A stretch of DNA of 64,000 nucleotides. Origin: Natronorubrum daqingense. Lineage in GTDB: Archaea; Halobacteriota; Halobacteria; Halobacteriales; Natrialbaceae. The notes beneath the pieces were generated by a model that saw nothing but the letters and a program-made list of their open reading frames with translations, was not told the origin of the DNA and searched no databases. How positions within the stretch are numbered: position 1 is the first letter of the stretch; each line of letters starts with the position of its first letter. Below, one piece after another: positions 32,495 to 39,189 of the stretch. Location of the stretch: positions 992,001-1,056,000 of the forward strand of contig NZ_CP019327.1 in assembly GCF_001971705.1 (NCBI RefSeq). Direction: 5' to 3'. The position numbers and the translations under genes are program-made.

Positions 32495-33730
32495 ATGTCC
32501 GCCAACGACGATCGTGATCCGCTCTTTCAATACGACGATCCGGTCTTTGCTGACGAGCGATTGCTCGAGATTACGCACCTCCCCGGCCCCGACCGCATCG
32601 TCGGCCGGGACGAACAGATGCAACGCGTCGCAGACGCCCTGAACCCTGCAATCTTCGGCAGCGAACCCAACCATCTATTCATCTTCGGGAAGACTGGAAC
32701 CGGAAAGTCACTCATTTCTCGATCGGTGACCCAACGTGTTATCTCGGAAGCCGGTCGTGACGACATCGTCGTCAAGTACGCCTTTATCGACTGCGGCGAA
32801 CAGAATACGGAGGCTTCGGTCATCAAGACCATCGCGCAACTCGTCAACGAACCCGAAGCGAGTGGCATCTCCGTTCCCGACCGCGGACTCGGCACCGGTG
32901 ACTACTACAAACGCCTCTGGGAGGCCATCGACCACTGCACGGACGTCACGATCGTCATTCTAGACGAGATCGACATGCTCGAGAACGACGAGGTCCTTCG
33001 AAAGCTCTCTCGAGCGGGCGAAAATCGGCGTATCTCGGACTCGAGTATCGGTATTATTGGCATTTCGAACAAGATCGACTTTCCCGATCATCTCTCCGAG
33101 CGCGTCAAATCGAGTCTTTCACGTGACGAACTCGTCTTTTCACCCTACGACGCCAACCAACTCGTCGAAATCCTCGAGAAACGCCGCGACGCGTTTCACG
33201 ATGGTGTCCTTTCCGACGACGTGATTCCGTTGACCGCCGCGCTGGCGGCCCAGGAACACGGCGACGCGCGGAAGGCGATCGATATCCTTCGCAATGCGGG
33301 TCGGATCGCAAAGAAACAAAACGCGACGCGCGTTACCGCGGATCACGTCCGGGATGCAAAGGAGAAAACCGAAGCCGACAGGTTCAACGAATTGATCGAG
33401 GGCTCTCCACAACAGGCGAAGGCGATCTTGTACTCGCTGACGCTGCTCACCGAGAACAGTTCGGAAAAGGAGTTCCCGACGAAGATTATCTACAACCAGT
33501 ACAAGTCGATCGCTCGTCAACTCAACTTCGACGTCCTCTCCGAACGGCGAGTCCAGGAGATCCTACAGGAACAAAACTTTCTCAACGTGATTCAATCCGA
33601 ACGTGAGGGACGTGGGCGCGGTCGAGGCGCGCACGCGAAACACCGGCTCCTCGAGAACCCGTCTATCGTCAAAAAGGTGCTCCTGCGAGATTCGCGACTG
33701 GCCGTCCTCGAGGACGACGGCGACGAGTAA
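32495..33730 (+). CDS. orc1: Orc1/Cdc6 replication initiator
   Basis: A 411-residue AAA+ ATPase that binds origin boxes and loads the MCM helicase. Walker A is GKTGTGKS near residues 66-73, Walker B is VILDEIDML near 153-161, sensor 1 is IGIIGISNKIDFP near 186-198, and sensor 2 is GDARKAIDILRNAG near 254-267. The C-terminal winged helix runs about 320-400 (TKIIYNQYKSIARQLNFDVL, then SERRVQEILQEQNFLNV) and ends in an Arg/Gly stretch GRGRGRGAHAKH. The gene directly borders the origin boxes on its 5' side. It is most likely the initiator for this origin. Confidence 0.97.
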   Translation: MSANDDRDPLFQYDDPVFADERLLEITHLPGPDRIVGRDEQMQRVADALNPAIFGSEPNHLFIFGKTGTGKSLISRSVTQRVISEAGRDDIVVKYAFIDCGEQNTEASVIKTIAQLVNEPEASGISVPDRGLGTGDYYKRLWEAIDHCTDVTIVILDEIDMLENDEVLRKLSRAGENRRISDSSIGIIGISNKIDFPDHLSERVKSSLSRDELVFSPYDANQLVEILEKRRDAFHDGVLSDDVIPLTAALAAQEHGDARKAIDILRNAGRIAKKQNATRVTADHVRDAKEKTEADRFNELIEGSPQQAKAILYSLTLLTENSSEKEFPTKIIYNQYKSIARQLNFDVLSERRVQEILQEQNFLNVIQSEREGRGRGRGAHAKHRLLENPSIVKKVLLRDSRLAVLEDDGDE

Positions 33731-35296: not shown

Positions 35297-36172
35297 ATGA
35301 ACGCTGTCGACGCAGCAGGTCTCGGGATCGGTGACGATTACCCGCCCCGGATTATGGGTGTGTTGAACGTCAGCGAGGAGTCACCGTACGATCCGAGCGT
35401 GTTCGACGATCCCGGTGACGCCGCTCAATATGTCGACGAATCGTTGATCGACGAGGGTGCCGATATCGTCGACATCGGACTCGAGTCTGCGAACAAACGC
35501 TTCGACGTGCTTTCGGCCGACGAAGAACTCGAGCGACTGGATATCGCCCTCGAGACGATTGAGAGCGTCAGTGGAGATGCGGTGTTCTCGATCGAAACTC
35601 GGTACGCAGCGGTTGCCGACGAGGCGATTTCACGTGGGTTCGACATGGTCAACGACATTGCCGGATTCGCCGATCCGGAGATGCCGGTCGTCTGTTCGGA
35701 GTACGACGTCGCCGTCGCCAAGATGGCAAGTCCGCCCGACCTCGAGCGACCCGGTGCCATCGAGGAGACCGATTGGGCGCAACGAAAGTCACGCGTGTGG
35801 GCCGATAACGCCGACTACGTCGACAAGGTCTACGAGGCGTTGAAACAAAACGGTCTGACCGAGAAGACGATCATCGATCCGGCGTTCGGCGGATGGAGCG
35901 AGGCACAAACGCTCGAGAACGACCGGGAGACGTTCCGACGCCTGCGAGAGTTTCGGTCGCTCGAGCGACCGATGCTCGTCTCGATCAACCGGAAGAACTT
36001 CCTCGGAGACATCGCCGATCGCGAGACCGAAGATCGACTGCCGGTGAGCCTCGCTGCGACCTCGATGGCCGTCGACCGTGGGGCACACATCGTCCGAACG
36101 CACGACGTTGCCGAAACGAGGGATGCAGCACTGATCGGTGATGCGTTCGCTGATTCGTGTGCTCGAGACTGA
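35297..36172 (+). CDS. folP: Dihydropteroate synthase-type protein
   Basis: A 291-residue TIM-barrel protein of the pterin-binding family, which joins a hydroxymethyl-dihydropterin to a p-aminobenzoate-type acceptor. Motifs: IMGVLNVSEESPYD near residues 19-32 (equivalent to NVTPDSF), DEGADIVDIGLESANK near 52-67 (normally G-A-D-I-I-D-I-G-G-E-S), GFDMVNDIAGF near 115-125, IIDPAFGGWSE near 193-203 and a basic loop LVSINRKNFLGD near 226-237. Several loops differ from bacterial FolP, so the acceptor may differ. The ATG at 35297 is preferred; the frame extends upstream. The C-terminus is formed by the first copy of a 19-bp repeat. MptE is encoded 600 bases downstream. Confidence 0.85.
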   Translation: MNAVDAAGLGIGDDYPPRIMGVLNVSEESPYDPSVFDDPGDAAQYVDESLIDEGADIVDIGLESANKRFDVLSADEELERLDIALETIESVSGDAVFSIETRYAAVADEAISRGFDMVNDIAGFADPEMPVVCSEYDVAVAKMASPPDLERPGAIEETDWAQRKSRVWADNADYVDKVYEALKQNGLTEKTIIDPAFGGWSEAQTLENDRETFRRLREFRSLERPMLVSINRKNFLGDIADRETEDRLPVSLAATSMAVDRGAHIVRTHDVAETRDAALIGDAFADSCARD

Positions 36173-36245
36173 TTCGTGTGCTCGAGACTGATTCGTGTGC
36201 TCGAGACTGATTCGTGTGCTCGAGACTGATTCGTGTGCTCGAGAC
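36151..36245. repeat. Five-copy perfect 19-bp tandem repeat at the folP 3' end
   Basis: Five identical copies of TGATTCGTGTGCTCGAGAC, end to end. The first copy encodes the last residues of FolP. The TGA at the start of the second copy is the stop codon (36170-36172), so the repeat array itself terminates the gene. Confidence 0.95.
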
Positions 36246-36454
36246 GAGTGTCGATCGATTTCTGTCTTCTTCTCTTTACGGCCGATCTACGCAGTCCCGA
36301 TGAGAGGAGCCAGCCACTCGTGGTACCAATAACCATGGTACAGTAACGTCGGACCGATTCGACTGAATTCACGCCGCTCGAGTATTCTCTCCAGATATTC
36401 GTCACGCTCGACAGTATCAGATTCCAACTACTGACAGTGCTCAGGTAAGAGAAA

Positions 36455-36461
36455 GCTTATG
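36455..36461 (+). promoter_or_regulatory. TATA-like box of the candidate small RNA
   Basis: GCTTATG lies about 26 bases before the predicted 5' end of the structured element near 36482. Confidence 0.4.
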
Positions 36462-36481
36462 CCTGATGCTTCAAAAGGATG

Positions 36482-36586
36482 GAGTGGACGCCGGGTGGCC
36501 TCCCGGGTAGGGGTACTTCGGAGGCGACCTCCCGGCCCACAACACGGAATTATTGTGGCCCCAACCGGCGAGTGACATCTTCACTC
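36482..36586 (+). ncRNA. Candidate structured RNA (three-way junction plus end hairpin)
   Basis: Three stems can be drawn by hand. P1 pairs 36489-36498 with 36561-36570 (nine pairs, one G-A mismatch). P2 pairs 36503-36511 with 36528-36535 (eight pairs, one bulged T). P3 pairs 36537-36542 with 36553-36558 (six pairs, 10-base loop). A perfect 6-bp hairpin, GAGTGA/TCACTC with a 5-base loop, follows at 36570-36586 and may mark the end. A TATA-like box sits at the right distance upstream. I do not recognise it as RNase P, SRP RNA, tRNA or a known riboswitch. It could be a stand-alone small RNA or a leader of mptE. Confidence 0.5.
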
Positions 36587-36769
36587 GAGCACGTTATGTA
36601 CTCCGCCGTGACTGTTCTTCTTTGAAATAGAATCGACTGATGAACGCTGGCTGTTGTGAACACAACGTCGGACTATCGTTCGTTGGACTATCTCGCTATT
36701 GTTCGTCCCACTATCGTTTGTGGGGCCGCGTGCGCAATACAGATACGACTCCACTTCACAAGAGGAAGT

Positions 36770-37483
36770 ATGGAGTTCGACGAGTGGGAACCCGTGTACG
36801 AAGCGATTCTCGAGGATTTCGGGTACGGTCGTGAAGGTGATGAGCGAGCGCGGGATCTTCTCGGATCGATGACCAACGCGTTCGATTTCGACGTACTCTC
36901 GAGCGTCGAAGACGCAACTGTCGCCATCGTTGGGGCGGGACCATCGCTCGAAGACGATGCTGCGCTCGAGCGAATCCGGGGAGCCGACGTCGTCTTTGGG
37001 GCCTCGACAGCGACCGATCGGCTCGCAGCCCACGGCATCGCCGTCGACTGTATGGTGACGGATCTCGATAAGAATCCGGGTACCGTTCGACGTCTCACGG
37101 AAGATGGCGTTCCCGTCGCAGTCCACGCTCACGGAGACAATATCCCGCTGATTCGCGAGGTCATTCCGACGTGCACAGACGAATACGTGCTTCCAACGAC
37201 GCAGGCTGCACCGCGGGGTCCGGTCGTCAACGTCGGCGGGTTCACCGACGGTGACCGTGGGGCCTTCCTCGCCGACCATCTCGGTGCCACGACCCTCGAG
37301 TTCGTCGGCTGGGATTTCGACGATCCGACGGTCGATGGGCAGAAAGCCCGGAAACTCGAGTGGGCCGAACGACTACTCGCCTGGCTCGAGCGACGCCGCG
37401 GCGAGGCGTTCGAACTGTTAGACGGCCGTCGAGCGACTATCGATACGAACGACTTACCAGTGGAACCCACCCGAGACCAGTGA
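36770..37483 (+). CDS. mptE: 6-hydroxymethyl-7,8-dihydropterin pyrophosphokinase MptE (DUF115)
   Basis: A 237-residue archaeal enzyme that transfers pyrophosphate from ATP to 6-hydroxymethyl-dihydropterin, the step before FolP; it replaces bacterial FolK. Family landmarks: ATVAIVGAGPSLEDD near residues 49-63, DVVFGASTATDRL near 72-84, CMVTDLDKNP near 94-103, VHAHGDNIPLI near 120-130 and FVGWDFDDP near 182-190. The ATG at 36770 gives the expected start MEFDEWEPVYE; the upstream frame does not look like protein. It lies on the same strand as folP, and the two give a pterin/folate pathway pair. Confidence 0.92.
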   Translation: MEFDEWEPVYEAILEDFGYGREGDERARDLLGSMTNAFDFDVLSSVEDATVAIVGAGPSLEDDAALERIRGADVVFGASTATDRLAAHGIAVDCMVTDLDKNPGTVRRLTEDGVPVAVHAHGDNIPLIREVIPTCTDEYVLPTTQAAPRGPVVNVGGFTDGDRGAFLADHLGATTLEFVGWDFDDPTVDGQKARKLEWAERLLAWLERRRGEAFELLDGRRATIDTNDLPVEPTRDQ

Positions 37484-38022: not shown

Positions 38023-39189
38023 TTAGAAGAGTGCGTCGAGTTCGCCGCCCGTATCGACCAGTGTCGCGAACTCGTCTTCGGCGTTCGCGTGCACGGTTGC
38101 CGTGGTCTCTTTCGCTTCGACAGCAACCTGTTGGAGTCGTTTGACACGTGGAACGTCCGTCACTCCCGAGAGGAGAACCACTGCTCCAACGTCCGAGTCG
38201 TCCGCCCGCGGATAATCGCCGCCGCGAATTTCCATGCTTCCCGTTTCCTCCTCGAGCCACTGTCGACCGCGTTCGACGCCCTTTCGATTGAGGTGATCCG
38301 CCGGCCCCGTGGCGACGACCAATCCGCGGTCTGCACTCCCGACGTCACACGGGAGCGTCAGTCGACCCAGCGTCGCCTTCCGGACGAGACTCGTCATCCG
38401 ATTGGTGGCGCTTCCCTCGTCGAACTCGTCGTTGCTCCCGGTGAACGACGAAAGCAGTCCGTCGCTGTTCGTTCCGACGGATTCGCTCGCGTAACCGATC
38501 GTCGAGACGCCGCCACTCGAGAGCGTGTTGATGATCTCTGAGGAATCGACGACGCTCTCTGCGACCACGTCGCCGTGTGAGACCTCGCCGGAAGCGAACA
38601 GGAGGCCGAAGCGTTCGACGATTTCGCGATTGATCCGATCGTAGCCGTCTCCGACGGATTCGCCGGTACTCCGCCAGACGTCGTTGTCGAAGACGAGGAG
38701 GTTGTCGACTTCCCGGACGAACGTCTGGAACGAGCGTGCCGCGTTGAGCGTGTAGATCCCGCCCTCGTCCATCGCGGGGAGGAGACCTAGCCCGTAGACG
38801 GGTTGGGTGTAGATGGTTCGGAGGTGTTTCGCGAGGACGGGTGCGCCACCCGACCCGGTGCCTCCGCCCAGACCGGCGACGACGAGGAACGCGTCGAGTT
38901 CGTGCGTCGGCACCTGATCGATCGCGTGTTGTATCTCGTCGATGTCCGTTTCGGTGACCGCTGCACCGAGTTCGTTGTCCGCGCCGACCCCGTGACCGTT
39001 CACTCGCGCCTGTCCGACGAGCACGCGACGATCCTCCGGGACGTTCTCGAGTCCGTGGAGATCCGCCGTCGCCGTATTGACCGCGATGGCGTCCTCGACG
39101 AACCCGCCGCCGATCTCGGAATCGTACGCCAGAAATTGATCGACGACCTTTCCACCTGCCTGTCCAAAGCCGATGAGTGCGAGTTTCAT
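38023..39189 (-). CDS. cetZ: CetZ tubulin-superfamily GTPase
   Basis: A 388-residue cytoskeletal GTPase of the archaeal CetZ group, which controls cell shape and motility in Haloferax. The GTP-binding tubulin signature GGGTGSG is at residues 108-114. The N-terminal ALIGFGQAGGKVVDQF is the first nucleotide loop and VNTATADLHGL the second. DGYDRINREIVERFG near 181-195 lies at the GTP-binding helix with the N and R/D residues. The C-terminal activation domain ends with TLVDTGGELDALF. The start at 39189 follows an AT-rich 300-base region. Whether it is CetZ1-type or another paralogue cannot be decided from the sequence alone. Confidence 0.92.
   Translation of the reverse strand: MKLALIGFGQAGGKVVDQFLAYDSEIGGGFVEDAIAVNTATADLHGLENVPEDRRVLVGQARVNGHGVGADNELGAAVTETDIDEIQHAIDQVPTHELDAFLVVAGLGGGTGSGGAPVLAKHLRTIYTQPVYGLGLLPAMDEGGIYTLNAARSFQTFVREVDNLLVFDNDVWRSTGESVGDGYDRINREIVERFGLLFASGEVSHGDVVAESVVDSSEIINTLSSGGVSTIGYASESVGTNSDGLLSSFTGSNDEFDEGSATNRMTSLVRKATLGRLTLPCDVGSADRGLVVATGPADHLNRKGVERGRQWLEEETGSMEIRGGDYPRADDSDVGAVVLLSGVTDVPRVKRLQQVAVEAKETTATVHANAEDEFATLVDTGGELDALF

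Follow-up and report, generated by a model that had tools for sequence, protein, structure and literature searches.

The window analysed here is a stretch of 64,000 nt from Natronorubrum daqingense (Natrialbaceae), in which a conserved structured non-coding element lies at ~36482-36580, with a folP-like gene on one side and an mptE-like gene on the other. A sequence-only reading had placed a candidate RNA between two genes of pterin/folate synthesis, and the Pfam matches confirm the identity of both neighbours. The features of the locus are:

35300..36172, + strand: folP-like gene, dihydropteroate synthase family (Pfam Pterin_bind, E = 3.7e-42)
36446..36461, + strand: predicted promoter of the RNA gene, a BRE plus TATA-like box (TAAGAGAAAGCTTATG), near-invariant in relatives and constant in its distance to the RNA
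36462..36481, + strand: putative TATA-to-start spacer, consensus tgCCGGAgGCTTCGAAA, conserved in the alignment and with a -10-like A/T peak
36482..36580, + strand: small RNA of ~100 nt, with ends predicted from promoter spacing (5') and from AGYGRC and the loss of conservation beyond it (3')
36484..36487, + strand: P0 5' strand GUGG, followed by an AC bulge; partner strand 36537-36540 (paired in 90% of cells, with changes from GC to GU/AU)
36490..36495, + strand: P1 5' strand GCCGGG; pairs with 36531-36536 (covariation)
36498..36503, + strand: P2 5' strand GCCUCC; pairs with 36520-36525 (covariation)
36504..36516, + strand: hallmark tip CGGGUA-GGGG-UAC, a GUA/UAC stem with a GGGG tetraloop at 36510-36513; GGGUAGGGGUA invariant in 31 members
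36520..36525, + strand: P2 3' strand GGAGGC (covariation)
36531..36536, + strand: P1 3' strand CCCGGC (covariation)
36537..36540, + strand: P0 3' strand CCAC (pairing in the structural alignment)
36548..36555, + strand: A/U-rich linker AAUUAUUG; U-runs stand at the same place in many stand-alone paralogues
36571..36576, + strand: 3' element AGYGRC, here AGUGAC; also found beyond many paralogues
36732..36748, + strand: GCGCAATACAGATACGA, probably a leaderless promoter that serves mptE separately, predicted from a rise in A+T
36770..37483, + strand: mptE-like gene, 6-hydroxymethylpterin diphosphokinase family (Pfam MptE-like, E = 3.1e-17)

The neighbours of the folP-RNA-mptE block are an Orc1/Cdc6 gene (32495-33730) on one side and a CetZ gene (38023-39189) on the other, in the window as at other Natrialbaceae loci. 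Between 36150 and 36245, the 19-mer CTGATTCGTGTGCTCGAGA forms a perfect tandem array of 5.1 copies that starts within the last part of folP and includes the stop codon of this gene. A haloarchaeal rRNA operon occupies 60-64 kb of the window.

A BLAST search with 201 nt of the region against 100 related genomes returned matches at the folP-mptE position, on the same strand, in almost every genome of the same family, and weaker matches at the same place and on the same strand in other families. Strong matches showed ~77-95% identity (mostly 82-95% across genera of the same family), and identity to relatives dropped past ~36560. A model of the element, R1, found matches in 245 of 293 genomes of the order (236 of the 274 good ones), including Haloferax, Halorubrum, Halobacterium, Halobellus, Natrialba, Natronorubrum and Halorussus; outside the order, no match was obtained in a sample of the phylum. 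The hairpin tip is almost letter-for-letter identical in about four fifths of the haloarchaea sampled. In most haloarchaea, across families, the RNA lies upstream of mptE on the same strand, and it still adjoins mptE at two loci from which folP has been displaced (L223 and L240). Conversely, it is missing, with mptE retained, from loci at which folP and mptE are directly adjacent, as in Natronocalculus and in some Haladaptatus. Decayed forms, in which promoter or stem remnants persist and the tip is altered, occur in Salinibaculum, Halonotius pteroides and Halopenitus. Three loci with decayed copies before mptE, from which the tip has been lost (L195, L213 and L239), constitute a natural loss-of-function series. 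Weak matches at L150, L155, L159, L162, L287-L290, L293 and L371 were judged to be due to chance.

The core of the element is one long hairpin, spanning 36484-36540 and ending in the tip GGGUA-GGGG-UAC. This fold, of 22 pairs, was tested on a structural alignment of 72 relatives, in which 90.9% of the cells were paired and 114 cells displayed double changes, versus at most 25 when the 3' strands were slid; none of 500 shuffles scored as high. As the alignment was fitted to a model of the P0-P1-P2 structure, the pair counts lean towards that fold, and the excess over the slid controls is therefore the safer argument. RNAalifold, run on the identical alignment, predicted the same helices. Folding of the single sequence was modest, with z = -2.06 for the interval of the sequence-only reading and -1.41 for a wider one, so that the case for structure is a comparative one.

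That reading had drawn three helices around a junction, followed by a perfect hairpin. The part that stands is the presence of a structured, conserved element between folP and mptE; the three-way junction is not conserved, covariation pointing to the single long hairpin instead. The P1 originally proposed (CGCCGG with CCGGCG near 36565-36570) is practically confined to the window genome and its sister, the CCGGC of its 3' strand being present in 6 of 99 relatives, while the P3 hairpin scored 6.29, hardly higher than the 5.66 of shuffled sequence. Compensatory changes, which had been suggested as a check of the three helices, were found for the redrawn P1 and for P2; the true P1 is GCCGGG (36490-36495) with CCCGGC (36531-36536). 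The sister species already lacks an intact version of the "perfect hairpin" GAGTGACATCTTCACTC, of which only the AGTGAC half is conserved.

The TATA-like box that had been noted fared better. A BRE/TATA-type box, nearly invariant in relatives, is found ~26 nt upstream of the proposed first RNA base, and an A+T peak coincides with this predicted promoter at 36446-36461. Aligned relatives have in common a conserved promoter box, TAAGAGAAAGCTTA, then the core of the hairpin, and finally AGYGRC preceded by a stretch rich in A/T. The two 3' elements were examined in a long-gap set of 47 genomes, defined by an mptE start at least 95 nt away: the linker octamer contained at least 7 A/T out of 8 in 45 of the 47, versus 1 of 47 in a control window, and AGYGRC occurred 25-50 nt past the core in 34 of 47, versus 2-4 of 47 in more distal control windows. 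Together with the promoter spacing, the octamer and AGYGRC suggest an RNA length of ~100 nt, from 36482 to ~36580.

The relation of the RNA to mptE differs between lineages. In the Natrialbaceae, the family of the window, mptE mostly lies ~100-300 nt downstream of the RNA, the gap reaching 302 nt. Across the 47 long-gap genomes, the A+T fraction climbs to 0.55-0.56 at positions -28..-24 relative to the start of mptE, versus ~0.38 nearby, and the mptE gene of the window genome seems, from its sequence, to possess its own leaderless promoter. Given this long gap and the TATA-like A/T rise before mptE, this family appears to transcribe the RNA and mptE as separate units. In many genomes of other lineages, 8-60 nt separate the RNA from the start codon of mptE, and in these short-gap lineages it is probably also part of the mptE mRNA.

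The earlier statement that the element resembles no known RNA class is upheld by a search of the whole window and of 13 diverse relatives with Rfam 15, which gave no match at the RNA locus; a permissive search of 36240-36780 (541 nt) returned only a chance mir-185 match on the opposite strand. Stand-alone sRNAs are a known kind of molecule, and this family is in no RNA library searched. A small protein gene was also considered and rejected, since core lengths of 52-58 nt span all three classes modulo 3 and no frame is free of stop codons in all sequences.

Weak second R1 matches in Haloferacaceae led to the discovery of the tip, as CGGGUAGGGGUAC, on unrelated hairpins with other promoters. Among 26 genomes, the 15-mer CGGGTAGGGGTACNC occurred 22 times versus 0 for the reversed control, the 22 occurrences taking in mptE-type copies and a few chance coding matches. 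The sequence common to all is the 11-mer GGGUAGGGGUA, invariant in 31 members, paralogues and orthologues of all types taken together; the stems and flanks vary among copies while these 11 nt remain constant. The paralogue stems covary as well (30 double-change cells versus at most 16 when slid). Using the model R3, family members were found in 194 of 243 genomes, often in 2-5 copies each, and none were found in lineages f6/g34, f9, f10/g38 and f11. A conserved BRE/TATA box, recognised by sequence only, precedes mptE-type and unlinked copies alike, and U-runs follow many of the stand-alone hairpins. Many unlinked copies are convergent with the next gene, beside unrelated genes and far from folate genes. 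Four R3 matches outside Halobacteriales, in f27, fall within reading frames or low-complexity sequence and are devoid of a promoter; they were judged to be due to chance. So were 28 contigs examined for viral carriage on the basis of a 16-nt pattern, 27 of which showed only 1-4 of 6 flanking pairs.

Several types of unlinked copies can be distinguished. Haladaptatus-like genomes harbor three orthologous ones, mostly convergent with the next gene and only ~45-50 nt long from predicted start to U-run; G089, G141 and G187 have at least 3 copies each, G089 and G141 being devoid of an R1 match. At the Haladaptatus-like loci L276-L284, the three orthologous copies are minimal, consisting of the hairpin plus a U-run, and their neighbours, named by eye, are a dCTP-deaminase-like/HTH pair, a GNAT/response-regulator pair, and a hydroxyacyl-CoA dehydrogenase or aldo-keto reductase gene. 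A second type in Natrialbaceae displays the outer stem GGUGGACA/UGUCCACC and the promoter ACCACAAAGCATATTCC, with 1-3 copies per genome where found. The window genome has its own copy of this type (G000:C1:3169727-3169760), and another is carried by a plasmid of Haloterrigena alkaliphila, the annotated gene after it being convergent. The second copy of the window genome (L294, ~1990-2090, - strand) is flanked by RNase J-like and HD-domain-like genes and carries the tip variant GGGUAGGGGUAU. In Haloferacaceae (L134-L141), several unlinked copies adjoin a small membrane protein that resembles, by eye, the DUF457/YdjM kind.

Three other explanations were weighed against a stand-alone RNA. The element could be mainly a cis-acting leader of mptE, either a pterin/folate riboswitch or a protein-binding leader, of which the unlinked copies would be offshoots. 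That the RNA precedes mptE on the same strand in different families, even with folP elsewhere, speaks for this, as does the gap of 8-60 nt to the start codon in many genomes, and tetrahydrofolate riboswitches offer a parallel as structured RNAs ahead of a folate-pathway gene. We nevertheless hold it to be unlikely, because the unlinked copies have their own promoters and unrelated neighbours, and many are convergent with the next gene; because the gap reaches 302 nt, with a separate mptE promoter predicted, in the window's family; and because mptE is kept where the RNA has been lost and folP abuts mptE. Nor does the window RNA match any Rfam riboswitch, and, unlike what is expected of tetrahydrofolate riboswitches, its unlinked paralogues are not beside folate genes and several cannot be leaders. 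The mptE-type copies lie upstream of the genes of one pathway in cis, as riboswitches do, whereas unlinked copies do not; convergent unlinked copies are not the leader of a downstream gene, and short-gap mptE-type copies are ambiguous in this respect. The sequence-only reading had left a choice between a leader sensing a pterin and an independent small RNA. The unlinked paralogues, with their own promoters and often convergent orientation, support the latter, as does the apparent promoter of mptE itself in the window genome; the data do not support pterin sensing by a leader as the general function, although the RNA may play a leader role in short-gap lineages.

The invariant, accessible, G-rich hairpin loop would also be a plausible seed for a trans-acting antisense RNA, whose GGGG loop would pair with C-rich mRNAs, and the multi-copy nature of the family fits such a role. 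Exact 10-nt complements of the tip in four genomes were however only mildly more numerous than those of the reversed control (42, the RNA genes themselves included, versus 25), and none recurred near orthologous start codons to designate a common mRNA; we regard antisense pairing as rather improbable. Complementarity of the RNA to rRNA was no better than to shuffled 16S. A GUAGGGG heptamer in common with the helix-45 region of 16S was also discarded, being expected by chance at that sequence length. A member of a known ncRNA family missed by Rfam, such as an H/ACA or C/D guide, is very hard to reconcile with the data and deserves little credence: the ACAACA that follows the hairpin in Natrialbaceae superficially resembles an ACA box, but the ACA trinucleotide is not conserved beyond this family, the internal loops are too small and form no pseudouridylation pocket, the invariant part is the tip, and no Rfam match was obtained.

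A copy transcribed head-on towards the next gene cannot serve as the leader of that gene, which makes a stand-alone RNA gene the best reading. We therefore favor, with moderate confidence, the interpretation of the element as the gene of a stand-alone sRNA of ~100 nt, belonging to a haloarchaeal family that acts in trans via its invariant tip. The RNA would be transcribed from its own BRE/TATA promoter, with the transcript and its ends as predicted above. The P0-P1-P2 hairpin would present the GGGUA-GGGG-UAC tip, with the A/U-rich linker and AGYGRC after it, and the stems may serve only to hold the tip. A frozen tip, free stems, dispersed copies and a dispensable position imply that something binds the tip, and the proposed mechanism is that the tip is shown in trans to one conserved partner. 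Since no mRNA recurred and rRNA complements were at chance level, a protein partner is somewhat favored, and the RNA may act as its binder or decoy rather than on an mRNA. As the family was not found in several lineages, its partner cannot be universally essential, and an essential function is disfavored. The place before mptE would be an inherited position, and the promoter of the RNA may also serve mptE in short-gap lineages. Counting against a purely trans-acting RNA is the very strong synteny with mptE, kept even where folP is displaced.

A more specific version of the stand-alone reading, which we advance only tentatively, is that these RNAs form a multi-copy family of decoys or scaffolds throughout the haloarchaea, whose invariant tip titrates a single conserved RNA-binding protein. 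Bacterial loop-presenting decoys, namely RNAs of the CsrB/RsmY kind and 6S RNA, have G-rich hairpin loops, occur in multiple copies and act in trans via protein binding; CsrA is a bacterial protein. The likeness is an analogy of function without homology, and the haloarchaeal RNA has one loop per molecule. If the decoy/scaffold reading is true, the family would be the archaeal counterpart, by convergence, of these bacterial regulatory RNAs. An RNA spread over most of the order, with a constant 11-nt tip amid changing surroundings points to a strongly constrained, unrecognised partner.

Haloarchaeal sRNAs are reportedly little conserved. In Haloferax volcanii, 22 of 27 sRNAs are confined to that species (PMC3956466), which makes a family spanning most of the order unusual, and a frozen tip is likewise unusual for such sRNAs. 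H225.2R and hts10 of H. volcanii, among the few reported in 18-19 other genomes (PMC3956466), are alike in breadth, the comparison being by description rather than by sequence or neighbours. In Haloferax mediterranei, RNA-seq detected a 58-nt sRNA, HM42_V (1769424-1769366), in the intergenic region between HFX_2905 and HFX_2904 (folP) (PMC5852579), i.e., at the same place as the window RNA and of approximately the length of its core hairpin. HM42_V is probably this RNA, on a match of location only, and as such gives the independent support for its transcription; in the accessible part of the source, it is one of many listed sRNAs, given without a family or structure description (PMC5852579). 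The family yields a covariance model for annotation, and the presence of this short, single-domain RNA in Haloferax, a genetically tractable model genus, makes the question of its function directly testable.
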